Position numbers and translations under genes: made by a program. Shown piece after piece: positions 12,256-51,826 of a DNA stretch of 51,826 nt; the first letter of the stretch is position 1; every line of letters begins with the position of its first letter. Location of the stretch: NCBI GenBank assembly GCA_018644725.1, contig JABGPZ010000064.1, forward strand, positions 1 through 51,826. The letters are read 5' to 3'. The stretch comes from Phycisphaerales bacterium (GTDB lineage: Bacteria; Planctomycetota; Phycisphaerae; SM23-33). The notes beneath the pieces were generated by a model. It saw only the letters and a list, made by a program, of their open reading frames with translations, had not been told where the DNA came from and ran no database searches.

Positions 12256-12801
12256 ATGGAATTTGACCCTCACATTCATCACCGCCGTTCCATCCGACGC
12301 CGCGGCCAAGACTATGCCCGCGCCGGGGCCTATTTCATCACTCTCTGTGCAGAAAACCGGAAATCGATCTTCGGACAAATCCGGCAGGAAACAATGCAAC
12401 TCTACCCACTCGGCCATGCGGCGGTGCAATGCTGGGAAACAATCCCCTCCCATTTTCCACATGTCAGACTTGATTCATTTGTGGTCATGCCCAATCACTT
12501 GCACGGAATTCTCTTTCTCGATGATTCCTGCCAGGAACCTCCCCTGCCGCCCAATGTTCCGCCGGTTTGGCCACCCGAGACAAAAACCCCGTCGCGGACC
12601 ATCGGTTCCATCGTGCGAGGGTTCAAAATCGGTGTGACAAAATGGGCGAAACAACACACATCAATTCAAGCCATCTGGCAACGCGATTATTTTGACCGCG
12701 TGTTGCGCGACCAGGAAGAACTCGTCAGAGCACGCAACTACATCGCCAACAATCCCCTTCAATGGGCTATCGACAAAGACAACCCGGAATGTCGTCCCTG
12801 A
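12256..12801 (+). CDS. REP-associated tyrosine transposase (RAYT, Y1/HUH family)
   Basis: 181 residues, typical for the family. Single-stranded-DNA endonuclease that recognises a GTAG tetranucleotide next to a REP hairpin. Visible signatures: HRRSIRRRG near the N-terminus, GAYFITLCAENR, the HUH metal motif in VVMPNHLHGILFL, and the C-terminal block YFDRVLRDQEELVRARNYI with the catalytic tyrosine followed by NNPLQWA. The intact frame and motifs suggest an active protein. No good Shine-Dalgarno precedes the ATG; the sequence around it (CATTTAGTG... on the other strand) gives little help. Its probable substrates are the eight GTAG hairpins in this window. Confidence 0.93.
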   Translation: MEFDPHIHHRRSIRRRGQDYARAGAYFITLCAENRKSIFGQIRQETMQLYPLGHAAVQCWETIPSHFPHVRLDSFVVMPNHLHGILFLDDSCQEPPLPPNVPPVWPPETKTPSRTIGSIVRGFKIGVTKWAKQHTSIQAIWQRDYFDRVLRDQEELVRARNYIANNPLQWAIDKDNPECRP

Positions 12802-38712: not shown

Positions 38713-41115
38713 TTATTTCTTGAACCACCCTGTGATGCGGCCGACCAGAGAGGTCTGCACGGTGGTCATATGGCTTTTGACGTCAACGCCCTCGGCCTTG
38801 GATTTTTCGACGATGTCCTTACTGGTCACGCCCAGCTCGCGCGCCAACTCAAAGACTCGCTGCTTCTTGCCAGGCTCCGGCTTGGGGGCGGGTTTGGCGG
38901 CAGGCTTCTTCGCTCTCTTGACGGGAGCCTTTGCTGTCGTTTTGCGAACGCGCTTGATCGTCTTGACCTTAGTCTCGGTTTCGGCCTGCGGGGCATCGTC
39001 CGCACCGGGCACTTCCCGAGGTGCGTCCTGCTTGGCGACCCTGCGGACTCGCTTGACACGCTTGACCCTTTTCTTCGGCGCGGGAGCGGATTCGTCCTCG
39101 CTGACGCGTTCTGAAGTTTCCACATCGGGCGTATCCTGCGACTCGGTGGCCTCGCTGGTTTCGCCCGCTTCGCCGGTCGCCTTGCGACGACGACGGCCCC
39201 CACGACGGCCGCGACGGCGACGCTTTTTCTTCGGCGCATCGTCTTCACTCGGAACACCGTCCGCACCTTCGCCCGGCACATCGGCCACGACGGTCTGGGA
39301 CGCGCCTTCCTCATCCGCAGCATCGGCGGAGTCTTCCGACGAGGGATTGGCCTCGGCGGCTTGCTCGGCGTTTTGCTCAGAAACTTTCTTCTTGCCGCCA
39401 CGACGGCCTCGGCGGCGCCTTTTTTTCTTGGGCTTGTCTTCGCCATCCTCGGTTTCGGTTTCGATCTCTTCATACATCTCCGGGCGTTCCAGCGCGCTGG
39501 TCGCCTCGGCGGCGGATCCGTCTTTGGGCAGGCTCGCGACATCAACAAACGTGATGTCGGTCTTGCTCTTCTTGCGGCTGGCTTTCGTGTCCCACTGCAC
39601 TTCATTGCCGCGAGGATTGCGGCAGGTGATGCGGAATTCATTCGCGCCGCAATCGTTGTCGGCACTGATGACCACGCGCTTGGCGGTCGTGCGTTCAAGC
39701 TCGCCGATGGTTTCGCGATGATCGTTGAGCAAATGGTGGGCCACAATCGGCGAAACCGCCACGTCCACCGTTGCGATATCGTCGTTGCCGTGGATCGCGC
39801 CCAACCGCCGGATAATCTGCAGGACGAGCGACTCTTCGCTCATCACCAACCCGGTGCCGCCGCAATGCGGACAGCGCGAAAATTCGGACTGGCGCAGCGA
39901 CGGGCGCAGACGCTGGCGCGTCATCTGGATCAGGCCAAACTGGCTCACGCGGAGAATCTTATGCTTGCCGCGGTCATCTTTCATCAACTCTTTGACTTTG
40001 CGTTCAAGTGCGCGGCGATTCTTTTCGTCACGCAGGTCGATGAAGTCGATCACAATCACGCCGCCCATATCGCGCAGGCGCAGTTGACGGGCGATTTCCT
40101 CGGCCGCAATGAAATTCAACTTCAGCGCGTTGGCCTCGGCGTTGCGGTCGCCGCGATAGCCACCCGAGTTGACGTCGATCGCCACGAGTGCTTCGGTCTG
40201 GTCAATCACAATCGAACCACCGCCGCGCAATTCGACCTTGCGCGCGTGAATCTTCGCGAGTTCTTCCTCAATACCGAAATACTCCAGCAGCCCCTGGGAG
40301 CCGTCGAAATATTCCACCTTGCAGCCCTTGCTACGCGGCACGGCGAGGTCGAGAAACTTCCGCACACGACGCGTCGCGTCGGCATTGTCGCAGACGATTC
40401 GCTCGAAGTTGGTATCGTAAATATCGCGCAGGGTCCGCAACACAAGGTCCGACTCCTGGCAGACGCAACTCGGCGCACGCGACGTTTCCGCCGCGGCATA
40501 GACCCCTTTCCAGACGCGCTGGAGATAGGCCATATCCCGCTGGAGGTCGCGCTTGGTTCGGCCAACGCCTGCGGTCCGCACGATCACACCCATGTTCTCG
40601 GGCATCTCGATTTCGTCGAGCATCGCACGGACTTTGCCGCGCGCGTCGGGGTCTTCAATTTTCCGGCTGATCCCGGCCTTGGACATATCTGGCATCATCA
40701 CCATCAGTCGCCCGGGGATCGAGAGATAGCTCGACATCGTCGGGCCCTTGGTGCCGATGCCTTCCTTGGTCATCTGCACGAGCAATTCCTGCCCGCGCTT
40801 GAGGCACTCCTGAATCGGCGGACGGGTGCGGTGCGCGGTGCGTCGGCCGACGGTTTCGGTCTGGTCCTTGGACTTGGGGAAAAATTTCGGGTGCAGATCC
40901 GAGATGTGCAAAAAGCCATTCTTGGTTGCGCCATAGTCCACAAACGCGGCCTGGATGCTCGGCTCAATATTGGTCACCTTGACCTTGTAAATATTGCCGA
41001 CCTGGCTGATGTGGCTCGATCGCTCGGTGTAGAGTTCCTCGAGGCGTCCGTCGCCAACGATGGCGATGCGGCACTCGTGGCCCTCTACGGTATTGATCAA
41101 CATTGTCTTCTTCAT
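38713..41115 (-). CDS. Ribonuclease E/G family protein with C-terminal IF2_N domain
   Basis: 800 residues. Order: S1 RNA-binding domain (about 36-100, GNIYKVKVTNIEPSIQAAFV); catalytic half with the metal-binding Asps in AIDVNSGG (about 312) and VIDFIDLRDEKN (about 355); Zn-link CPHCGGTG (about 416). Residues 520-740 are disordered, with three Arg/Lys clusters (KKKRRRRGRRGG twice, then KRVKRVKRVRR). The end (about 750-797, KQRVFELARELGVTSKDIVE then KSKAEGVDVKSHM) matches the IF2_N module of initiation factor IF2. Single-strand endoribonuclease for mRNA decay and rRNA processing. Its ATG is two bases past the DUF2344 stop. Confidence 0.93.
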   Translation of the reverse strand: MKKTMLINTVEGHECRIAIVGDGRLEELYTERSSHISQVGNIYKVKVTNIEPSIQAAFVDYGATKNGFLHISDLHPKFFPKSKDQTETVGRRTAHRTRPPIQECLKRGQELLVQMTKEGIGTKGPTMSSYLSIPGRLMVMMPDMSKAGISRKIEDPDARGKVRAMLDEIEMPENMGVIVRTAGVGRTKRDLQRDMAYLQRVWKGVYAAAETSRAPSCVCQESDLVLRTLRDIYDTNFERIVCDNADATRRVRKFLDLAVPRSKGCKVEYFDGSQGLLEYFGIEEELAKIHARKVELRGGGSIVIDQTEALVAIDVNSGGYRGDRNAEANALKLNFIAAEEIARQLRLRDMGGVIVIDFIDLRDEKNRRALERKVKELMKDDRGKHKILRVSQFGLIQMTRQRLRPSLRQSEFSRCPHCGGTGLVMSEESLVLQIIRRLGAIHGNDDIATVDVAVSPIVAHHLLNDHRETIGELERTTAKRVVISADNDCGANEFRITCRNPRGNEVQWDTKASRKKSKTDITFVDVASLPKDGSAAEATSALERPEMYEEIETETEDGEDKPKKKRRRRGRRGGKKKVSEQNAEQAAEANPSSEDSADAADEEGASQTVVADVPGEGADGVPSEDDAPKKKRRRRGRRGGRRRRKATGEAGETSEATESQDTPDVETSERVSEDESAPAPKKRVKRVKRVRRVAKQDAPREVPGADDAPQAETETKVKTIKRVRKTTAKAPVKRAKKPAAKPAPKPEPGKKQRVFELARELGVTSKDIVEKSKAEGVDVKSHMTTVQTSLVGRITGWFKK

Positions 41116-41117
41116 GG

Positions 41118-41867
41118 TTACTCCGTAACTGTACTGGATGTACTTGGGATATTGGTTGCTCCCCGCGCGAATTCGCTGGCGGGGAAATCGTCTTCAATGT
41201 GTGTCCGCGTAATGCGGGCGACGGCGGCGGCCTTGTCCTGGCCTAGCAGCGTCGCAATTTCGCCCAGGCGCGCCCACGAGCCGTCCACCGGCGCGAGGGT
41301 CAGCCTCAGCGTTGTGCCCTCCAGGGCAATGTGCTGCACCCGAGGCCGCAGGTCCACGGTCTTGGTGCGTTTTTCGGCGAGGACACGCCGTTTGTTGCGT
41401 TTGGTTTTCATTGCGCGCTCCACCGGCCATTGCTCGCGGGTGTCCAGCTCGGCGAGTGCCGTCGAGACGGCGGAGGCTTCGGCAGAGTCAAATTCCAGCC
41501 GATAGGACACGGCCCGGGGAACGTTGCACTGGCCTTTGGAAATTTCCGCCGCAGCCACAAACGCAATGCCCGCGATGGTCGCGCCGTTCAGTGCCGCCAA
41601 AAGCGCTTCGGGCGTGGCGGGCTCGTCCAGCGCAAGCAACAGCCGCTCGTCTTCACTGGCGATGCCCACACTCCGCGGAACCGGCAGACTCATCACCGGG
41701 TGCGGATTGAACCCCTGGGTATGGCGTAGCGCCAGCTGCCCGCGACGGGCGATACGGACCAGCGTGCGCATCATGTCATGATGCGACAAAAACCGAATGT
41801 CCCCCGCGACGGTCATACGTAATGCCCATCGCTGAGGCGCTCTGGATGGATCTGCAGATGCGCTCAA
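41118..41867 (-). CDS. DUF2344 (TIGR03936) protein
   Basis: 249 residues from a TTG at 41867 with AGGA seven bases upstream. The conserved core RWALRMTVAGDIRFLSHHDM and HTQGFNPHPVMSLPVPRSVG is the family signature; starting at the later ATG (41816) would cut off the first strand. In other bacteria this domain follows, or is fused to, a radical SAM protein beside an RNase E/G gene. Here it precedes the RNase gene, but no radical SAM gene is present. Biochemical role unknown. Confidence 0.8.
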   Translation of the reverse strand: MSASADPSRAPQRWALRMTVAGDIRFLSHHDMMRTLVRIARRGQLALRHTQGFNPHPVMSLPVPRSVGIASEDERLLLALDEPATPEALLAALNGATIAGIAFVAAAEISKGQCNVPRAVSYRLEFDSAEASAVSTALAELDTREQWPVERAMKTKRNKRRVLAEKRTKTVDLRPRVQHIALEGTTLRLTLAPVDGSWARLGEIATLLGQDKAAAVARITRTHIEDDFPASEFARGATNIPSTSSTVTE

Positions 41868-41956
41868 CGAAAAATCCTGTTCTGCATCGCCGCCAGCGAA
41901 TCACGCGGCGCGACGCAATGGTATCTGGCCGGGCGCGGTCGCCTGGCCGGGTGTCG

Positions 41957-42004
41957 TTCCCGCGTCAACGCGGGAATAGTGCTCTGGGGAAGGTCCTTCC
42001 CCAG
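41957..42004 (-). promoter_or_regulatory. Two perfect hairpins between ptsI and the DUF2344 gene
   Basis: TTCCCGCGT/ACGCGGGAA (41957-41976) and CTGGGGAAGG/CCTTCCCCAG (41984-42004) stand eight bases apart in the 143-bp gap. Neither has a T-run in either direction that would make a terminator. They may protect the 3' end of the PTS message or separate expression of the two halves. Confidence 0.6.
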
Positions 42005-42010
42005 CAAGTC

Positions 42011-43753
42011 TCAGCCGCCGAACACCTCGGGCATGATCTTCCGCGCAGTTGCACGGAGATAGTTCGAGATTTCGGCATCGGTATCAAATCGGCTCACCTG
42101 GCGGGCGACTTCCATCGCCTGCTGAATGGTGACCGAGCGAATCATTTTTTTGATTTCGGGAATCATCGGCGGCGCACAGCTGAACCGGCGCAATCCGAGG
42201 CCCAGCAGAATCAGCGTGTACATCGGCGAGCCCGCCATTTCGCCACAGAGGCTCACGGGGATGTTGTGCTGCTGGCCGGTGCGGATGACCTCGCGGATCA
42301 ATCGCAACACGGCCGGGTGGCTGGGGGTGAATAGCGGCGCGACGCGTTCGTTCACGCGGTCCACCGCGAGGGTGTATTGGGTCAGGTCGTTGGTGCCGAT
42401 GGAGAAAAAGTCGACCTCGCGCGCAAACGCATCCGCCTGAAGCGCCACCGAGGGCACCTCGACCATGATTCCGATCGACAGGTCCGGGTTGTGGTCGATG
42501 CCTTCGTCTTCGAGATCTTCGCAGACGTCGCGGACGATCATTTTCGCCTGGCGCAGTTCGGTTAGGTTGGTAATCAGCGGGAAGAGAATTCGCACGTCGC
42601 CCTCGACGCTCGCGCGCAGAATTGCACGCAATTGCTGGCGGAACATCGGCAGGTTCTGGAGGCAATAGCGGATACTGCGGCAGCCGAGAAACGGGTTGCG
42701 CTCGGGGTTGCGGGCGCGTTCCTGCGTATATTTGTCGGCGCCGAGGTCGAGGGTTCGAATCACGACGGGCTTGGAGTTGCACTCGCGGATGACGTGGCAA
42801 TAGGCTTCGTACTGGTCGTCCTCGCTGGGCGCGGTGTCGCGGCCAAGATAGAGGAACTCTGTCCGGTAAAGCCCCACGCCCCCGCCGCCCTTGGTGAGAA
42901 CGGTGGCGACCTCTTCGGGAAATTCGATGTTGCCGAACAGCTCGATCTCGTGGCCATCGCGCGTAATCGCAGGCAGGCGGCAGAGGCTGTCCAGCGAATG
43001 GACGAAATCGCTCTGCTGGCGAGCGATGGTCTTGTATTTCGCGAGAGCGTCTTCGTCGGGATTGAGAATCAGCAGCCCGTTGTTGCCATCGAGAATCGCC
43101 ATGTCGCCCGAAGCGGCGCTGGCGGTAATGTTTTCCAAGCCCACGATGGCGGGAATGCCGAGGGCCTTGGCGACGATGGCGGTGTGGCTGGTCGCCCCGC
43201 CGGCATCAATGGCGATGCCGCGGATGTGGCGGCGGTCGGCCATCGCGGTCTGCGACGGGGTCATGTCGTGGGCGACGACGATGACATCGCGCCCGAGGTC
43301 GCTGAGGGTCTGGGGTTCGCGGCCCGAGAGATTTCGCAGCAGGCGCTCTTCGATATCGTAGACGTCTTTGACACGCTCGGCGAGATACGTGGGCATGTCA
43401 TGGAATTCTTTGGCGTACTCTCCGAGGACTTTGGCGACGGCGCATTCGGCCGCAATGCGTTCCTGATCGATCGTGGAACAAAATCGGTTCAGCAGCAATT
43501 TGTCCAACAGCAGGCCAACATGGAAGTCAAAAATACGCGCGGCCTCGACACCGATTTTCCCGGCGGTGGATTCCTGAAGATCGAAAATCTCTTTCTGGCT
43601 TTTCTTAATCGCGGCCGTCAGGCGGTCCTGCTCATCACGCACCGCTTCCGGGGCGATCTCCTGGTGGGGGACGTCATACTCCTCCCCACCGAGAACGACC
43701 ACTTCGGCGATGGTAATGCCGGGACTGACCCCGATGCCACGATTCTGCTTCAT
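42011..43753 (-). CDS. ptsI: Phosphoenolpyruvate-protein phosphotransferase (PTS enzyme I)
   Basis: 580 residues, standard for EI. Takes phosphate from PEP and passes it to HPr. The phospho-His is in GGATSHTAIVAKALGIPAIV (about 189); PEP-binding motifs are GVGLYRTEFLYLGRD, DLGADK, FSIGTNDLTQYTLAVDR and the active Cys in SLCGEMAG. No N-terminal GAF domain, so it is not a PtsP-type EI. AGGAAATC precedes the ATG. Third gene of the EIIA-HPr-EI order. Confidence 0.96.
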   Translation of the reverse strand: MKQNRGIGVSPGITIAEVVVLGGEEYDVPHQEIAPEAVRDEQDRLTAAIKKSQKEIFDLQESTAGKIGVEAARIFDFHVGLLLDKLLLNRFCSTIDQERIAAECAVAKVLGEYAKEFHDMPTYLAERVKDVYDIEERLLRNLSGREPQTLSDLGRDVIVVAHDMTPSQTAMADRRHIRGIAIDAGGATSHTAIVAKALGIPAIVGLENITASAASGDMAILDGNNGLLILNPDEDALAKYKTIARQQSDFVHSLDSLCRLPAITRDGHEIELFGNIEFPEEVATVLTKGGGGVGLYRTEFLYLGRDTAPSEDDQYEAYCHVIRECNSKPVVIRTLDLGADKYTQERARNPERNPFLGCRSIRYCLQNLPMFRQQLRAILRASVEGDVRILFPLITNLTELRQAKMIVRDVCEDLEDEGIDHNPDLSIGIMVEVPSVALQADAFAREVDFFSIGTNDLTQYTLAVDRVNERVAPLFTPSHPAVLRLIREVIRTGQQHNIPVSLCGEMAGSPMYTLILLGLGLRRFSCAPPMIPEIKKMIRSVTIQQAMEVARQVSRFDTDAEISNYLRATARKIMPEVFGG

Positions 43754-43851
43754 GATTTCCTGTCTCCCTGACGGGTGGTTTGTGTTGGGTTGTCGCGAGG
43801 GCAGCCCTGGGCGGCGGAGGCGCGGGGTTCGCGCGGCACTCCGGCCGAGAC

Positions 43852-44133
43852 TCAGGCCTGATCGAGTTCGCCAAATCCGCTGGCGATCAGTTCGACCAGT
43901 GCCCCTATCGCGTCCGACGCGTCGGCGCCTTCAGCGCGCAACGAAAGGACCGTCCCTTTGGTCGCCGCAAGGCGCATCACAGACATGATGCTCTTGGCGT
44001 CGACCGTCAGGTCGTCCTTGATGATTTCGATTTTGCTCGCAAACTGACCCGCTTGCTGCACCAGCGTCATCGCCGGGCGGGCATGCAGGCCGAATTTGTT
44101 CACAACTTCAACGTCTTGTTCGAGTAATGGCAC
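43852..44133 (-). CDS. ptsH: HPr phosphocarrier protein
   Basis: 93 residues with a GTG start (44133). Active His17 in FGLHARPAM; the second site Ser48 in VDAKSIMSVMRLA matches the context phosphorylated by HPr kinase in other bacteria, so the protein may have both transport and regulatory phosphorylation. No HPr kinase gene is in view. Lies 98 bp before ptsI and 37 bp after the EIIA gene. Confidence 0.95.
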   Translation of the reverse strand: MPLLEQDVEVVNKFGLHARPAMTLVQQAGQFASKIEIIKDDLTVDAKSIMSVMRLAATKGTVLSLRAEGADASDAIGALVELIASGFGELDQA

Positions 44134-44170
44134 GTTCGCTTATCGTATATTGGAATCCGGTTGGATTGGG

Positions 44171-44638
44171 TTAGTTCATGTCGTCCGATTCGCGGAGCAG
44201 CTCCACAATCGAATCGACATCTTTGGCTTGGAAAAGGAATTTGCGGAACATCTCGCGCTGGACGTTTTTGAAAATCGTTTCCATCGCCTGGAGGTGTTCA
44301 TCGGGCGTGTCGGGGTTGCTCAGCAACAAAATCACGCCAAAGACGGGCTGGGTGTCGAGGCTGGAAAAGTCCACCCCGTCGGCCACCAGGCCAATCGTCG
44401 CAATCGGTTTTTTGATGCTGGCGAGCTTGGCGTGCGGAAGCGCAATGCCCTTGCCGATGCCCGTGGTCGCCTGCTTCTCGCGTGCAATGATCGCCTTGAT
44501 CACCGCAGCGGTTTCGTCTTGGGAAATCGCGCCCGCATCCACCATCGCGGCGACGAGTTCTTTGATAACGTCATCGCGCTTGGTCGCCTGGACTTCCGGC
44601 ACCAGTGCCTTCGTAATCATGATCTCAGAAAGTTTCAT
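44171..44638 (-). CDS. PTS EIIA protein (fructose/nitrogen family)
   Basis: 155 residues with AGGAG six bases upstream. Accepts phosphate from HPr on His69 (GKGIALPHAKL). The rest (EKQATTGIG, FGVILLLSNPDTPDEHL) is typical PtsN/FruA-type EIIA. With HPr and EI but no EIIB or EIIC nearby, a regulatory chain similar to PTS-Ntr is more likely than sugar transport. It heads the operon; the promoter is not clear (TATACT at 44731-44736 on the minus strand is a candidate -10 with a poor -35). Confidence 0.93.
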   Translation of the reverse strand: MKLSEIMITKALVPEVQATKRDDVIKELVAAMVDAGAISQDETAAVIKAIIAREKQATTGIGKGIALPHAKLASIKKPIATIGLVADGVDFSSLDTQPVFGVILLLSNPDTPDEHLQAMETIFKNVQREMFRKFLFQAKDVDSIVELLRESDDMN

Positions 44639-45366: not shown

Positions 45367-46014
45367 CTAGTCGGAGAGTTTGTGGTGATGGCGCGTTTCG
45401 AGCTGGTCAACGATGGCGACGGCGAGCTCGGTTTTGCAGCGGTCCGCTCCGGGGAGGACGACGCCCTCGGGCGCGAGAATGCACGCCCACGACGCGCCGG
45501 CGGCCATGGCGGCGGGAGTATTGAGCACGACGAGGTCGGCATGTTTGGCGACCATTTCTTCGCGCGCTTTGGCAATGGCCTGGTCGTGGGGCAAGTCCTC
45601 GACGGCGAACGCGCACACGATCTGGTCGGCGCGTTTATCAACGGCGACACCGGCGATGAGGTCGGGCGTAGGCACGAGCGATATCTCCACGGGGCCCGCA
45701 CGGCGGGACAGCTTTTGGCCCGCGGGCCGCTCGACAGTAAAATCACCGACGGCCGCAGACATCGCCAACGCATCGGCGGCGGGGAACTCTTCGCCGAGGG
45801 CTGCTTGAAGCTCGTCCACGGTCACAAAATCGCGCCGCGTCACGCCGGGCGGCGTGTCGAGATGGACAGGCCCGGTGAGCAAAACGACCTCGTGGCCGCG
45901 CGCTGCAGCCTCGGCCGCGACGACAAACCCCATCTGCCCGCTCGACGCATTGGAAATGAATCGAACGCTGTCGATTGGTTCGCGCGTGGGCCCGGCTGTA
46001 ACGAGAATCTTCAT
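45367..46014 (-). CDS. coaB: Phosphopantothenate-cysteine ligase (CoaB), stand-alone
   Basis: 215 residues. Joins cysteine to phosphopantothenate in CoA synthesis. Signatures: [36 protein letters not shown] and AFAVEDL. Most bacteria fuse CoaC to the N-terminus; here only the CoaB (DFP C-terminal) half is encoded and no flavoprotein CoaC gene is in the window. It has its own leaderless promoter although it follows the fusion gene by 48 bp. Confidence 0.93.
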
Positions 46015-46062: not shown

Positions 46063-48924
46063 CTACTCGGAAATCACCCACGTCGTATTGTCGCGGGTGG
46101 CAAGTCGCGCCGCGGGGAGTTCCACCGCCGTCGTGCGCACTGCCTCGACCATGGCGCGTTTTTCGTCGCCGGGCGCAAAGAACAAAATATCCCGCGCCGC
46201 TTCGAGCGCTCCAAACGTCATCGTGATGCGCGTGGTGTCCTGCTGGGGCACGTCATTGGCGACGACCAATCGTTCACGCTCGCCGAGCGCGGCCGTGCCG
46301 GGAAACAGGCTCGCCGTGTGCCCGTCCTCACCGAGGCCGAGAATCACAAGGTCCAGCTTGGGAGTTGCGCCGGGAATCACACGCCGCAATTCACGCTCAT
46401 AGGCCGCCGCCGCTTTGGCGGGATCGCCCTCGGCCTGGATGCGGTGAATATGATCGGCCTCGACGCCGGCGGGCGTCAGCAGCGTTTCGGTCGCCATGCG
46501 ATAGTTGCTTTCGGGATCATCGGGCGCGACGGTTCGCTCGTCACCGAAGAAAAAGTGAATCCGCGATACGTCGAGTTTCCCTCGCGAGACCAGCACACGA
46601 TGAAGCTCGCGCGGGCTGTTGCCGCCCGAAAGCGCCACTGTCGCCACACCCCGGCGGGCAATGGCGCGCGCCAGAACGGTTTCGACGTGCTCGGCCGCCA
46701 GGTTTGCACACGACTTCACTCCGCGCGCAGACAGGGTCCGCTCGCGCGAGGGACGCACACGGCGATACACGCCCGCCATCCGTCGAGCCATCGTCGCGTC
46801 ACAGAAATGCGCTTCACAGCGCGCCCGGCCAGCCCGTCCCATGCTGGCGCGAACGGTGTGACTGGCGAGAATGGTTTCCAGAGCATCCGCCAGCGCTTGG
46901 ACATTGCGCGGCTCGACCAGCAGCCCCGTCTCCGGCGCGACGATCTGTTCGACGGCCCCCACGCGCGTAGCCACCACAGGCCGCGCCGCGGCGAACGCTT
47001 CGAGCAGGACCATCGGATAGGCCTCGGAATGACTCGGCAAGACCACCGCCGACGCCTGCTGGAGCGCAACGGTTTTGCGTCGCCCACGGATCATCCCCGG
47101 CAGCGTCACCTGCTTGCGCAAGTCGAGTTCGTCGAGCATCGTCTTGAGAATTTTTCGGTCGTCGGGATTGCGGCTACACCCGGCGAGAGTCATGCGAAAC
47201 GCAATGCCTCGATCGCGCAGAATCGCGGCCGCTTCGATCAGCTCCCGTGTGCCTTTGGATTCGCCGAGATGGCCGAGGAACAGCAGCATCGGCGCCGGGT
47301 CGTCGGGCATCTCCGTCGCGTCGGAAAGCAGCACCCCATTGGGGATCACCTGCGGCATCCGGCGGCAGAACGAACGCACCGTCATCGCCGCGGCATCGCT
47401 GAGGCAGATCACTTCCCGCCCAAGTTGCAGCGCCCGTCCCATCGCCCATCGGCGCAGACGTGAACGGGAATTCGCAAACGCGCCAAACTGTCCGCCGTGA
47501 ATGTGCCACACCCCGCGTGCGCCGCACAGCCGCGCCAACAGCATCGTCGCCGTGTCGCGCCAAAACGTCATCCCGCTGCAGGTGTGAAGATGCACGATCG
47601 GCCGACGCGCGCGCAGGACCGTCCGCATCACTCGTGCTCCAAGGCGAAGCTGGCTGACCACGCCCGCCAACAGCGAGCGCCCCGGCGCGGTCCGTTTTCC
47701 ATTGGGAATCATTTTCATCTGGAACGCGTTGTTCAGCGGCGACTCCGCCAGCACGTCGGCTACCGAGGCCATGCCGCCCGTCTGGGGAAACTGCGGCGCG
47801 AGCTGGATCACCGTATCGCGTGAATCGGGTGCGGCGAGGCGCTGGTACAGGTCGAAATAGTCGCCCGCCATGCGCGTCGCCGAATAGAGTGTTTCGACGG
47901 TTTGTTTCGCACGCGCCGCACGTTGGGCGGCCGCTTGAGGATCGGCGAGGGTGTGATTGATTGCCTCGGCCAGCACGCTCGGCAGCCCGGGGCGCACGAG
48001 CACTCCCGCTCCGCCCGCGAGGACATCGGGCACGTCCCCCACAGCCGTCGCGACGAGGGGCAATCCCGCCGCCGCCGCTTCGAGAACCACCATCGGCAAG
48101 CCTTCGCTGCGGCTCGACAACACCATCCCGTCGGCCGCTGCATAGAGGTCTGCCGTGTCGCTGCGCTGGCCGAGAAGCACCGTGCGCGACTCGACACCCA
48201 GCGCAGCCACCTTCGCAAACAGCGCTTCGAGCTCGCTGCTGTTGCCGCCGCCCGCGATCACCAAACGCGCCTCGGGCGAGTCCACTCGCGCAAACGCATC
48301 AAGCAGATCGTCATACGCTTTTTCCGGTTTGATATTGCCCACTGCCAACAACATCGGCGCGTCGGGGGGAATGTTCATCTCCGCGCGCAACCGCTCGCGC
48401 GCATCGGCCGCAGGAGGCTTGGGCGCAATCCCGTTGGCCACCACGCTCACCTCTCCGCCATAGTGCCACAGCTGGGCATAATCCGCCGCCACATCATCGG
48501 CCACCCCCACCAGCGCGTCCAGCGAGCGCGCCAAGCGCCGCTCCAGCCAGCCCGCCCGAGGGGACGAATCCTGCATCTTCAACAGCCCGTGCGCCGTCAT
48601 CACTCGCCGCGCATGGGGCACGACCTTGGCCGCGAGCAATCCATAGACCACACTACTGCGGTCGTGCAGATGGATCACGTCCGGGTCAAATTTTCGCAAC
48701 AGGCGCGCGAGACGCGCCACGGCCGGGAGGTCTGTCCCACGCCGCGAATCCAACTCACACACCAAACATCCCGCCTCGCACAATTCCGCACCATAGGCAT
48801 CCGCACGCTGGAGCGCAATCACACACACATCCACACCGCGCCTGGCCAGCGCCACGCCAAGCGTAGCGACCACGCGTTCTTTGCCTCCCACGCGAAGCTG
48901 GTCTACGATCAATGCAACCTTCAC
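46063..48924 (-). CDS. Tripartite fusion: GT4 glycosyltransferase + GT4 glycosyltransferase + 6-phosphogluconolactonase
   Basis: One uninterrupted 953-codon frame. Part 1 (1-365) is a GT4 enzyme: IVDQLRVGGKERVV, HLHDRSSVVYGLL, AVGNIKPEKAYDDLL, SRSEGLPMVVLEAAAAGLPL. Part 2 (371-725) is a second GT4 enzyme of a different branch: PQFPQTGGMASVADVL, HIHGGQFG, LGHLGESKGTRELIE, SHSEAYPMVLLEAFAA. Part 3 (about 728-953) is 6-phosphogluconolactonase: ALSGGNSPRELHRVL, FFGDERTVAPDDPESNY, LGLGEDGHTASLFPG. The linker between parts 2 and 3 is very short, and the first strand of the lactonase seems reduced. No internal start with a ribosome site was found for part 3. Overlaps the upstream ligase gene by four bases. 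Confidence 0.88.
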   Translation of the reverse strand: MKVALIVDQLRVGGKERVVATLGVALARRGVDVCVIALQRADAYGAELCEAGCLVCELDSRRGTDLPAVARLARLLRKFDPDVIHLHDRSSVVYGLLAAKVVPHARRVMTAHGLLKMQDSSPRAGWLERRLARSLDALVGVADDVAADYAQLWHYGGEVSVVANGIAPKPPAADARERLRAEMNIPPDAPMLLAVGNIKPEKAYDDLLDAFARVDSPEARLVIAGGGNSSELEALFAKVAALGVESRTVLLGQRSDTADLYAAADGMVLSSRSEGLPMVVLEAAAAGLPLVATAVGDVPDVLAGGAGVLVRPGLPSVLAEAINHTLADPQAAAQRAARAKQTVETLYSATRMAGDYFDLYQRLAAPDSRDTVIQLAPQFPQTGGMASVADVLAESPLNNAFQMKMIPNGKRTAPGRSLLAGVVSQLRLGARVMRTVLRARRPIVHLHTCSGMTFWRDTATMLLARLCGARGVWHIHGGQFGAFANSRSRLRRWAMGRALQLGREVICLSDAAAMTVRSFCRRMPQVIPNGVLLSDATEMPDDPAPMLLFLGHLGESKGTRELIEAAAILRDRGIAFRMTLAGCSRNPDDRKILKTMLDELDLRKQVTLPGMIRGRRKTVALQQASAVVLPSHSEAYPMVLLEAFAAARPVVATRVGAVEQIVAPETGLLVEPRNVQALADALETILASHTVRASMGRAGRARCEAHFCDATMARRMAGVYRRVRPSRERTLSARGVKSCANLAAEHVETVLARAIARRGVATVALSGGNSPRELHRVLVSRGKLDVSRIHFFFGDERTVAPDDPESNYRMATETLLTPAGVEADHIHRIQAEGDPAKAAAAYERELRRVIPGATPKLDLVILGLGEDGHTASLFPGTAALGERERLVVANDVPQQDTTRITMTFGALEAARDILFFAPGDEKRAMVEAVRTTAVELPAARLATRDNTTWVISE

Positions 48925-50303
48925 GCCGTCGTCCTTCCGGGCATCATCCGCCGACGCCGACGTGCGGCCTCTTCATACCCCTCATCAAGTTGACGCAAGC
49001 GTTTTCGGGTTGCGGCAGGCAGGCCTGAAAATTCTGATTCGGGCGATTGTTCCGGACCGGCTTCGAGTTCACGTCGGGCAATTTCCAAAAGCGGCACGCT
49101 CAATAGCACAATGCCGTAGAGATATTCCAAACCCATCTGCGAGAGGAACGTCGCGCCGATGCAAAACGCCGCCAACGACACAAAGATCATCTCGCCATAT
49201 TGGCGCACCCACGCACCGGTTTTGCCCGGGAATTGTTTTGCAAGTTTTCGCGTTCGCCAACACCGTCGCAACGCCGAGAGCATCATTCCAACATAGAGCA
49301 CCAGCCCGATATAACCCATCGATGCCAAGGTCGTAAACCAGACCGAGTGCGCGACGTGAGGCTTGTCTTCAACGTGAGTTTTGTACCGATCATACTCGGC
49401 CATGAACGCCTGGCGCCCGACGCCGAATCCTGTCCAGGGGCGGGCGTTGGCCATATTGGTGGCGGTTTCCCATGCCCACAGGCGCCCCCGCGCCGAAGCG
49501 TCCTCTTCGTGGTTTTGCAGCGTTAAATATCGGTCGTAAGTTTCCTGAGGGACAAACGGAATCACCAGCATCAATCCCATGATCCCCAAAAGAATCCCTT
49601 TGGCCAGTCCAAATTTGCGCCAGAGGATCAACCCCCACGCCGTTGCCAAGGCCAGCATCCCCCCGCGGGATCCGCCGACGACGACGGCCGGGATCGACAT
49701 GAACGCGGCGAAGTAGGTCATCCGCCGGGCCCACACATTTTCAATCTGCGGCGCAAGATACACCAGCAACGGCAAGCCAATCGTAATGAACAGCGCCGTA
49801 TCGTTGTTGTCCAGCCCCATCGGCCCGCCATGGTGCGTCCGCGCGGAGGTCGTCAGGAGATAGAGCCCGAGCTTGATCGCATAGAACCCCGCGCACCAAG
49901 CCATGACCATCAGCAGCGAGCGGAGTTGTTTGCGTGTGCGCACCAGACCCGTAATCAAGATCATCGCCATAGCGATTTTGCTGAACTTGGTCACGAACAC
50001 CATCGCGTAGACTCGGTGCGGCGAAAGCCATGCACTGACGGCCATCCACAGCCAGAACATCAAAAACCACACCGCCGGGCCTTTGATGCGAATCTTCGGG
50101 CCGGCCGTCGCTGCCCAGGCGCGCGCAAGGAGAAAGATCGCAATAAAAAACGTAAAACGCCCTTCTCGCGCCGTTGGACCCCATGCCAAAGACTGAGGTT
50201 TCATAAACGACCAGAGGCAATAGATCAACAGCCCGCGAAACGCGTCCGCGAGGGGCACGGGGATGCAGGCTAGGCCAAACAGGATGATCAGGACATCGCG
50301 CAT
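48921..50303 (-). CDS. O-antigen ligase-like protein (exosortase-associated O-glycosylation ligase type)
   Basis: 460 residues from ATG 50303, where homology starts (MRDVLIILFGLACIPVPLAD); the frame extends to 50363. About ten to eleven hydrophobic segments plus a large loop with GGSRGGMLALA and RPWTGFGVGRQAF, the Wzy/WaaL-type pattern (Wzy_C). The N-terminus, with AFRGLLIYCLWSFMKPQSLAWG, resembles the putative O-glycosylation ligase family linked to exosortase/PEP-CTERM systems. Basic, helical C-terminal tail. Translation starts inside the end of the upstream glycosyltransferase gene (16-bp overlap). Confidence 0.78.
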   Translation of the reverse strand: MRDVLIILFGLACIPVPLADAFRGLLIYCLWSFMKPQSLAWGPTAREGRFTFFIAIFLLARAWAATAGPKIRIKGPAVWFLMFWLWMAVSAWLSPHRVYAMVFVTKFSKIAMAMILITGLVRTRKQLRSLLMVMAWCAGFYAIKLGLYLLTTSARTHHGGPMGLDNNDTALFITIGLPLLVYLAPQIENVWARRMTYFAAFMSIPAVVVGGSRGGMLALATAWGLILWRKFGLAKGILLGIMGLMLVIPFVPQETYDRYLTLQNHEEDASARGRLWAWETATNMANARPWTGFGVGRQAFMAEYDRYKTHVEDKPHVAHSVWFTTLASMGYIGLVLYVGMMLSALRRCWRTRKLAKQFPGKTGAWVRQYGEMIFVSLAAFCIGATFLSQMGLEYLYGIVLLSVPLLEIARRELEAGPEQSPESEFSGLPAATRKRLRQLDEGYEEAARRRRRMMPGRTTA

Positions 50304-51466
50304 TCGTTTCGGTGAGACGGCCCGCACGCGATGCGACGATAACACCTCGCCACCGCCTCCCATGAGTGGTCGCGCATGACAGTCTCATACCCATTATCGG
50401 CCAATTTCGAGGCAAGAATTGAGTTTTGTAAAATTTTTTGCACGGCATCGGCCATTGCCTCGGCCCCATCGGCCACCAACAGGTTCTCCCCCGCCTCGGC
50501 CGCAATGCCCTGGGTCGAGAGTGTCGTCGCGATTACCGGCCGCCGCGCCGCCCACGCCTCGAGAAGCTTATTCTTGACACCCGTGCCAATTCGCATGGGC
50601 AAAATCACCGCATGGGACGCAGCCATCCAATCTCGCATATCATCTACAAACCCAGTGACAATAAGATGTTCTGATTTTATTTTCTCCCACGATTCCGGCG
50701 AATTGGCCCCCAAAAGGACCACGCGAAGATCCGGGACGCTCTTGCGGAGAACCGGTGCGATTTTCGTCGCGAGAAGCTCGGCCGCGTCACGATTGGGCGG
50801 GTGAGCGAAGTTTCCTGGGAAATAAATCGTCGGCTGAGCCTCGGGTGCGGCGACTGGCGTCTGCGAAAAATAATTCACGTCCACGCCGCCGGGAACCGTC
50901 TCGACGCTCACTTTTCGATGGCGCCGGGCAAAACTCACGCGGTCAGTCTCGCTGACCATCACCACCGTATCCACGTCGCGGCAATACCGCCGAGCATCGC
51001 GGTCAAAGCCCCAGCAGAATTTCAGCCGGCGCAAAAACGCACCCGGACGAAGGTCGCCAAAGAGCTTGCGCCGTTCTTCGAGAATCGGATCGTCGCCGAG
51101 ATCGGCAATGACGCGCTTGCACGCGCGCGCCTCGGGGGCATATTGCAGCGCTCCGGGATTCACCAGCACCATCACGTCGGACTGCTTGGCCCACTGCGCG
51201 ACGACCGGGGCAAATTCGCCATCGAACACGCATACCCCCAGCGCATGGCGCGGCCGAATGGGTGGCTCGGGCGTTTCGATGCGGACCACCTCTACACCTG
51301 CGTCGGCATAGGCCGCAAGGCCAGGTGCGTCGTCGCCGCGACTGCGGCAGAGGATACGAACCGAGTCTCCCCCGGCCAAAAGCGCACGGGCCTGGTGAAA
51401 CACACGCAGCCACGTCCCGCTCGTCAGCGGCCAGGGAAACCCACTTGTCACAAAGGTCCATTGCAT
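50288..51466 (-). CDS. GT4-family glycosyltransferase
   Basis: 392 residues from ATG 51466; the frame runs up to 51553 but that part lies upstream of the -10. N-terminal SGFPWPLTSGTWLRVFHQAR is the acceptor-side loop; the donor half has YFPGNFAHPPNRDAAELL, VLLGANSPESW, and LPMRIGTGVKNKLLEAWAAR, the GT4 E-x7-E region in a common variant. First gene of the minus-strand polysaccharide cluster; overlaps the ligase gene. Confidence 0.88.
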   Translation of the reverse strand: MQWTFVTSGFPWPLTSGTWLRVFHQARALLAGGDSVRILCRSRGDDAPGLAAYADAGVEVVRIETPEPPIRPRHALGVCVFDGEFAPVVAQWAKQSDVMVLVNPGALQYAPEARACKRVIADLGDDPILEERRKLFGDLRPGAFLRRLKFCWGFDRDARRYCRDVDTVVMVSETDRVSFARRHRKVSVETVPGGVDVNYFSQTPVAAPEAQPTIYFPGNFAHPPNRDAAELLATKIAPVLRKSVPDLRVVLLGANSPESWEKIKSEHLIVTGFVDDMRDWMAASHAVILPMRIGTGVKNKLLEAWAARRPVIATTLSTQGIAAEAGENLLVADGAEAMADAVQKILQNSILASKLADNGYETVMRDHSWEAVARCYRRIACGPSHRNECAMS

Positions 51467-51472
51467 CCGTCC

Positions 51473-51484
51473 AGTATACCACAT
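51473..51484 (-). promoter_or_regulatory. Extended -10 promoter of the polysaccharide cluster, predicted leaderless
   Basis: On the minus strand TGTGG then TATACT (51473-51478), with TG one base ahead of the hexamer (extended -10), and six bases to the ATG. No good -35, as expected for extended -10 promoters. Confidence 0.5.
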
Positions 51485-51510
51485 TCCCTGCCCGAGACGA
51501 TAGAGCGCGT

Positions 51511-51539
51511 TTGCATTTTCGTGCGTCGGGGAGTACGAT
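51511..51539 (+). promoter_or_regulatory. Promoter of the ECF sigma gene, predicted leaderless
   Basis: TTGCAT (51511-51516), 17-bp spacer, TACGAT (51534-51539), six bases, GTG. Back to back with the extended -10 promoter on the other strand. Confidence 0.55.
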
Positions 51540-51545
51540 ACGCCC

Positions 51546-51826
51546 GTGAACACTCCGCTGGGCCATCTCGAATCGCTCGACGATCTGACGTTGTTGCGCC
51601 ACCATCTCGCGGGCGACCTCGACGCGTTCGAGGTCTTTCTGCGCCGCTACCAAGCGCCGCTCTACGGGTTCCTCGTGCGATTCACCGCGTCGTGCTCTCT
51701 CGCCGACGATGTGTTTCAAGAGACGTTTCTCAAAGTTCACAAGGCCGCTGCAACGCTCCACGATCGCGGCAACATCAAGAGCTGGCTGTTCACCATCGCC
51801 GCCAACACCGCCCGCGACGCCCTGCG
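51546..51826 (+). CDS. ECF-type RNA polymerase sigma factor (3' partial)
   Basis: GTG start at 51546; 93 codons are visible and the frame runs off the window. Region 2 of sigma-70 ECF factors is clear: HLAGDLDAFEVFLRRYQAPL, LADDVFQETFLKVHKAA and IKSWLFTIAANTARDAL. Region 4 lies outside. It diverges from the polysaccharide cluster with about 80 bp between the starts, so it may control that cluster or neighbours to the right; no target can be proven here. Confidence 0.88.
   Translation, partial: MNTPLGHLESLDDLTLLRHHLAGDLDAFEVFLRRYQAPLYGFLVRFTASCSLADDVFQETFLKVHKAAATLHDRGNIKSWLFTIAANTARDAL

Follow-up and report, generated by a model that had tools for sequence, protein, structure and literature searches.

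A putative fusion of a tandem glycosyltransferase with a 6-phosphogluconolactonase, encoded in one open reading frame of a Phycisphaerales bacterium

In the DNA of a Phycisphaerales bacterium, two GT4 glycosyltransferases (GTs) and a 6-phosphogluconolactonase (6PGL) are encoded in one frame. Most likely, this is a real but accidental fusion in which every part works, joining its parts in an unusual way without creating a system of a new kind. Translation as a single chain, activity of the parts, and origin by loss of a stop codon are what we infer from the sequence; taken as a whole, the account of one chain with three working domains, the last being an ordinary and sole 6PGL, joined by in-frame stop loss, seems to us rather probable.

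Results

The fused gene and its surroundings

The analyzed stretch, hereinafter the window, comprises 51,826 nucleotides. The features of the fused gene and of its neighbors are as follows.

46063..48924, minus strand: fused gene, GT4–GT4–6PGL, 953 amino acids (open reading frame and domain searches)
47830..48924, minus strand: first GT4 unit, amino acids 1–365 (Pfam; closest NCBIfam model, TIGR03088)
48105–48079, minus strand: EX7E motif of the first GT4 unit, amino acids 274–282 (sequence)
46750..47814, minus strand: second GT4 unit, amino acids 371–725 (Pfam; relatives)
47025–46999, minus strand: EX7E motif of the second GT4 unit, amino acids 634–642 (sequence)
46741..46764, minus strand: seam, amino acids 721–728, effectively no linker (two models; structure alignment starting at amino acids 724–732)
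46066..46740, minus strand: 6PGL domain, amino acids 729–953 (Pfam, NCBIfam, motifs, structure alignment)
46716..46719, minus strand: GTGA, an in-frame GTG (amino acid 736) overlapping a +1-frame TGA, where two overlapping genes might meet should the assembly contain a one-base error (sequence)
48921..50363, minus strand: O-antigen ligase/polymerase-like gene, exosortase A system-associated, directly upstream of the fused gene (TIGR03097 above the cut-off)
50288..51553, minus strand: GT4 glycosyltransferase of the cassette, upstream (nearest model TIGR03087, below the cut-off; Pfam, NCBIfam, and relatives)
45367..46014, minus strand: stand-alone CoaB-type protein, 215 amino acids, without the CoaC half, the first gene downstream and outside the fusion (Pfam and NCBIfam)

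The preliminary description of this DNA had proposed an in-frame GT4–GT4–6PGL fusion, and the open frame, the Pfam matches, and the TIGR01198 match bear this out. The frame 46063–48924 runs through 953 codons with no internal stop, Pfam assigns two GT4 units and PF01182 to its product, and the catalytic motifs are intact in all three domains. Judging by the sequence, a frame of this length with three complete co-linear domains is not a product of chance. The gene starts with GTG at 48924, overlapping the stop codon of the upstream gene by four nucleotides (GTGA), and GGAAGG lies eight bases 5′ of this start. The G+C content and GC3 are even over the three parts of the gene, and the window contains no N.

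The CoaB-type gene sits between the fused gene and the dUTPase gene; a CoaB-type gene upstream of the conserved pts cluster was not detected in the relatives. The genes for Rne/Rng, a DUF2344-like protein, PtsI, HPr, and EIIA form a block conserved in the family (window positions 38713–44638 and 16 relatives), and no sugar permease gene was seen adjoining its phosphotransferase components. Elsewhere in the window, positions 12256–12801 encode a short protein that, by eye, resembles a REP-associated (RayT-like) transposase from its N-terminus.

The glycosyltransferase pair and its cassette

Both PF13439 and PF00534 match two stretches of the fused protein, corresponding to the N- and C-terminal GT4 domains of each unit. 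The first unit scores 233 bits with TIGR03088 (stp2, PEP-CTERM/XrtA glycosyltransferase), under the cut-off of 409, and is thus classed only as a relative of that family; the other NCBIfam models matching the GT parts also stay under their cut-offs. The ligase gene upstream reaches 226.9 with TIGR03097 (cut-off, 188.1), and the genome has two exosortase matches (PF09721) on another contig (C68), away from the cassette. With a TIGR03097 ligase adjoining and an exosortase in the genome, the cassette is, by sequence, of the PEP-CTERM/exosortase-associated type, in agreement with the polysaccharide cluster proposed earlier.

The GT4–GT4 part by itself is ordinary for the family. Five same-family relatives carry it as one frame, of approximately 750–800 amino acids in four (G007, G009, G024, G025) and running to the contig edge in the fifth (G026); in G016 the halves form two open reading frames, and in G010 they lie at two contig ends. 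The order of an stp1-like GT, the TIGR03097 ligase/polymerase, and GT–GT is common to the window, G007, and G010. The tandem in the relatives thus matches that of the window in its two halves, in their order, and in lying 3′ of the polymerase/ligase gene, but where its 3′ end is readable, other genes follow and 6PGL is absent, whereas in the window 6PGL is attached. In G007, G010, and G016 the gene 3′ of GT–GT is CoA-ligase-like.

On the GT4 tree, which is small and has long branches, N-terminal halves cluster with the relatives' N-terminal halves, and C-terminal halves with C-terminal halves (SH-aLRT 99). Hence, the pair is old in the family and does not stem from a recent tandem duplication. 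This agrees with the preliminary description, which had placed the two domains on different branches and had discounted a simple duplication.

The 6PGL domain

PF01182 matches amino acids 739–949 (E-value 1.1e-65), and the equivalog-domain model TIGR01198 (pgl) scores 192.3 bits against a curated cut-off of 124.45. The motifs SGGNSP (766), GDER (794), SNYRM (806), and GLGEDGHTASLFPG (863), as well as R899 and K922, are kept. All checked conserved positions (the GGxTP loop, DER, GxGxDGHxASLF, and the C-terminal Arg and Lys) are retained save a conservative substitution, T770S, so that the motifs are indeed intact, as initially noted.

The preliminary description also considered the first strand of the domain short, which holds in part. 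Solved 6PGL structures (3TX2, 3ICO, 1VL1, 3E7F) match the 6PGL part end to end in the structural alignment, with Z of about 28–32, and their first residues fall on model residues 724–732, so the fused domain appears to be full length. The sequence of the strand, RTLSA, is atypical in lacking the usual aliphatic pattern, with T730 and S732 where the relatives mostly have Ile or Val, and the models disagree on whether the NagB/RpiA-like fold includes its first strand here: the full-length model has a strand at 729–733, and a second AlphaFold model (amino acids 371–953) has a helix with pLDDT below 50. In the full-length model, the 6PGL part has pLDDT of approximately 84–98, and the GT parts are poor due to the shallow alignment. 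Thus, the fused domain shares with DevB/Pgl-type 6PGLs (TIGR01198) the above-cut-off score, a fold match over the whole length, and the conserved motif positions, and differs from them in sitting behind two GTs, in the atypical first strand, and in zwf not adjoining.

The seam, and the possibility of a sequencing error

The last predicted GT helix (710–720, low confidence) leaves about eight residues before 6PGL, in line with the minimal linker noted earlier. Homology to the GTs of the relatives stops at amino acids 724–729; given that the 6PGL alignment starts at 724–732, the seam spans about eight residues and neither domain appears truncated. In relatives with a readable 3′ end, GT–GT terminates some 5–10 residues beyond the position of amino acid 723.

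These details bear on a competing explanation, namely, that a one-base indel from sequencing or assembly has merged two overlapping genes, with GT–GT ending at the +1-frame TGA at 46716–46718. As this TGA overlaps an in-frame GTG, a single-base error could fuse two such genes, and the arrangement at 46716–46719 mirrors the four-nucleotide overlap at the 5′ end of the fused gene. Overlaps of a few bases are described as common in unidirectional gene pairs (PMC10666635), which fits this explanation, as do the occurrence of the fusion in a single genome and the weak codon-frame signal at the seam: the codon-frame statistic, which picks the right frame for 94% of stretches of 12 codons from known genes, makes no clear call at the seam and is weak in the preceding GT tail. 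On the other hand, a gene starting from the GTG of amino acid 736 would miss the first-strand region present in the relatives, and this GTG has no properly spaced Shine–Dalgarno sequence; the longest base run at the seam is three bases; none of the searches of the genome reported a frameshifted gene; and both domains agree in register, frame, and length. Overall, we regard such an error as unlikely. Reading the seam in another frame revealed no strand-1 sequence in register.

The junction lies exactly between the end of one domain and the start of the next, in the same frame, and a join this precise would rarely arise from a random chimera. A repeat-driven chimera or misassembly finds no support, the 221-bp junction being found once in the genome. 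Neither did the relatives provide the picture that the preliminary description had held against a fusion, that of separate genes at this locus with a frameshift or misassembly at the junction: they have no pgl there, and the junction is unique.

A real fusion might also coexist with free lactonase made from an internal start, e.g., GTG 46770 or 46758. In-frame starts are present at 46791, 46779, 46770, 46758, and 46719. That at 46770 is preceded by GGATGG with a pairing energy equal to that of the fused gene's own start, and 46758 would yield a 6PGL of normal length. Still, at all of them the Shine–Dalgarno sequence is weaker than at the nearby EIIA, PtsI, and Rne genes, and we consider this variant of the fusion improbable.

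pgl, zwf, and gnd in the genome and the family

The suggested search for a separate pgl gene yielded none: in the genome (95% complete), PF01182 matches nothing but the fused domain. Genes zwf (C111) and gnd (C25) are present, both off the window's contig. Replacement by a YbhE-type lactonase was considered and rejected, as PF10282 gives a single match, marginal and partial. Since the sole PF01182 match occurs together with zwf and gnd, the fused domain would most likely be the housekeeping 6PGL of this genome. 6-Phosphogluconolactone also hydrolyses spontaneously.

Within the family, pgl stands alone as a gene encoding approximately 235–260 amino acids, and in 17 of the 25 relatives having zwf it lies directly 3′ of the latter. 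Four genomes of one genus (G024–G027) have gnd and neither zwf nor a strong 6PGL-type match, which fits pgl serving zwf; judging from gene content, they have lost the first oxidative pentose phosphate steps and retained 6PGDH. A 188-residue protein and a conserved one of about 457 residues (74–81% identical between genera) are encoded as a conserved block just 5′ of pgl or zwf–pgl in three relatives (L132 in G032, L133 in G036, L070 in G009).

Twenty PGLs of the family form a branch (support 99) to which the fused 6PGL does not belong; it sits on a long branch amid PGLs of other members of the phylum, with best identities of up to approximately 50%. This position, whose exact place is unsure given the long branch, suggests transfer or an old paralogue.

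Two other origins were considered and rejected. An ancestral pgl site beside the pts/rne cluster was suggested by zwf–pgl–EIIA in G009, and 16 other relatives show no pgl there. The other, a reciprocal exchange involving the CoA-ligase gene downstream, left no sign of a matching join: contig C49 carries the homologue of this gene, and C111 carries zwf.

Discussion

Comparison with other fusions

No second case of the GT4–GT4–6PGL order was found in the genomes of the family and the phylum. Wherever the 3′ end could be read in the family relatives, GT–GT had no 6PGL joined to it, and no other GT–6PGL fusion was seen in about 425 phylum genomes (35 of the family and 392 of the phylum), the weaker matches having been checked in part. 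Long open frames proved, where checked, to be chance read-through of frames overlapping zwf or other genes, with the exception of RuvX–PGL described below. The fusion is thus known from one genome, whose genus has one member in the comparison set; no close relative of the species turned up in a contig scan, and our literature search found no description of a GT–6PGL fusion.

An in-frame fusion of 6PGL to RuvX/YqgF (PF03652) occurs in four phylum genomes of two genera (L130:825–2075 in G194, L151:1248–2594 in G246, L152:1396–2625 in G298, and L153:1669–2856 in G179). As in the window, the N-terminus of 6PGL is joined to an unrelated neighbor by a very short linker, but the partner is RuvX/YqgF and two genera are involved, whereas the window fusion involves a GT pair and is a single case. 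The RuvX case shows that 6PGL persists with an unrelated neighbor at its N-terminus.

G6PD::6PGL fusions are known from Plasmodium, Giardia, Trichomonas, and vertebrate H6PD, with repeated independent origins, and channelling has been proposed for them (PMC3148214). There, 6PGL is likewise one domain of a multifunctional chain, but its partner is the preceding enzyme of the pathway, whereas the GT pair of the window has no pathway link; Pfam finds no G6PD domain in the fused chain.

Is the fusion functional?

The fusion could be functional, with the tethered sole 6PGL, placed or regulated by its partner, coupling surface glycan synthesis to pentose phosphate flux, in the form of NADPH or of pentose precursors, or acting on another sugar lactone. 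The parts are in frame and apparently intact, and phosphorylated or nucleotide-activated sugars serve as substrates on both sides of the join. Against this, the fusion occurs in one genome, the same GT–GT occurs without 6PGL in relatives, 6PGL is also found on RuvX with no metabolic link, and the motifs and fold are those of a standard 6PGL; moreover, being the only copy explains the retention of the domain. We therefore deem a functional fusion very unlikely. Neither of the roles initially offered gained support. Action on a sugar phosphate linked to polysaccharide synthesis and coupling of NADPH supply to export both sit poorly with ordinary 6PGL motifs in the sole copy of a genome having zwf and gnd, with GT–GT lacking 6PGL in relatives, and with 6PGL joined to RuvX elsewhere.

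Proposed origin and implications

Under the preferred explanation, a real but accidental fusion, one polypeptide would carry three independently acting enzyme domains, with no channelling implied. The GT4 pair, as is inferred from its family, would add sugars to a carrier-bound glycan, and the 6PGL domain, as the cell's only such enzyme, would hydrolyse 6-phosphogluconolactone for the oxidative pentose phosphate pathway. Because the fused pgl does not belong to the family's own pgl lineage, a transfer or a rearrangement probably brought it to its place directly 3′ of the GT–GT gene; the stop codon between the two would then have been lost in frame.

What is new is the way in which known enzymes are combined, and the combination comes from a single genome. 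Taken with RuvX–6PGL, the fusion in the window suggests that, more than once in the phylum, 6PGL has become joined to an unrelated gene upstream of it, and such a fusion alone should thus not be taken to show that its partners are linked in function. A real fusion would mean that the single lactonase of this bacterium is produced where, and as fast as, a polysaccharide glycosyltransferase is, providing a natural test of whether the housekeeping lactonase step needs independent expression.
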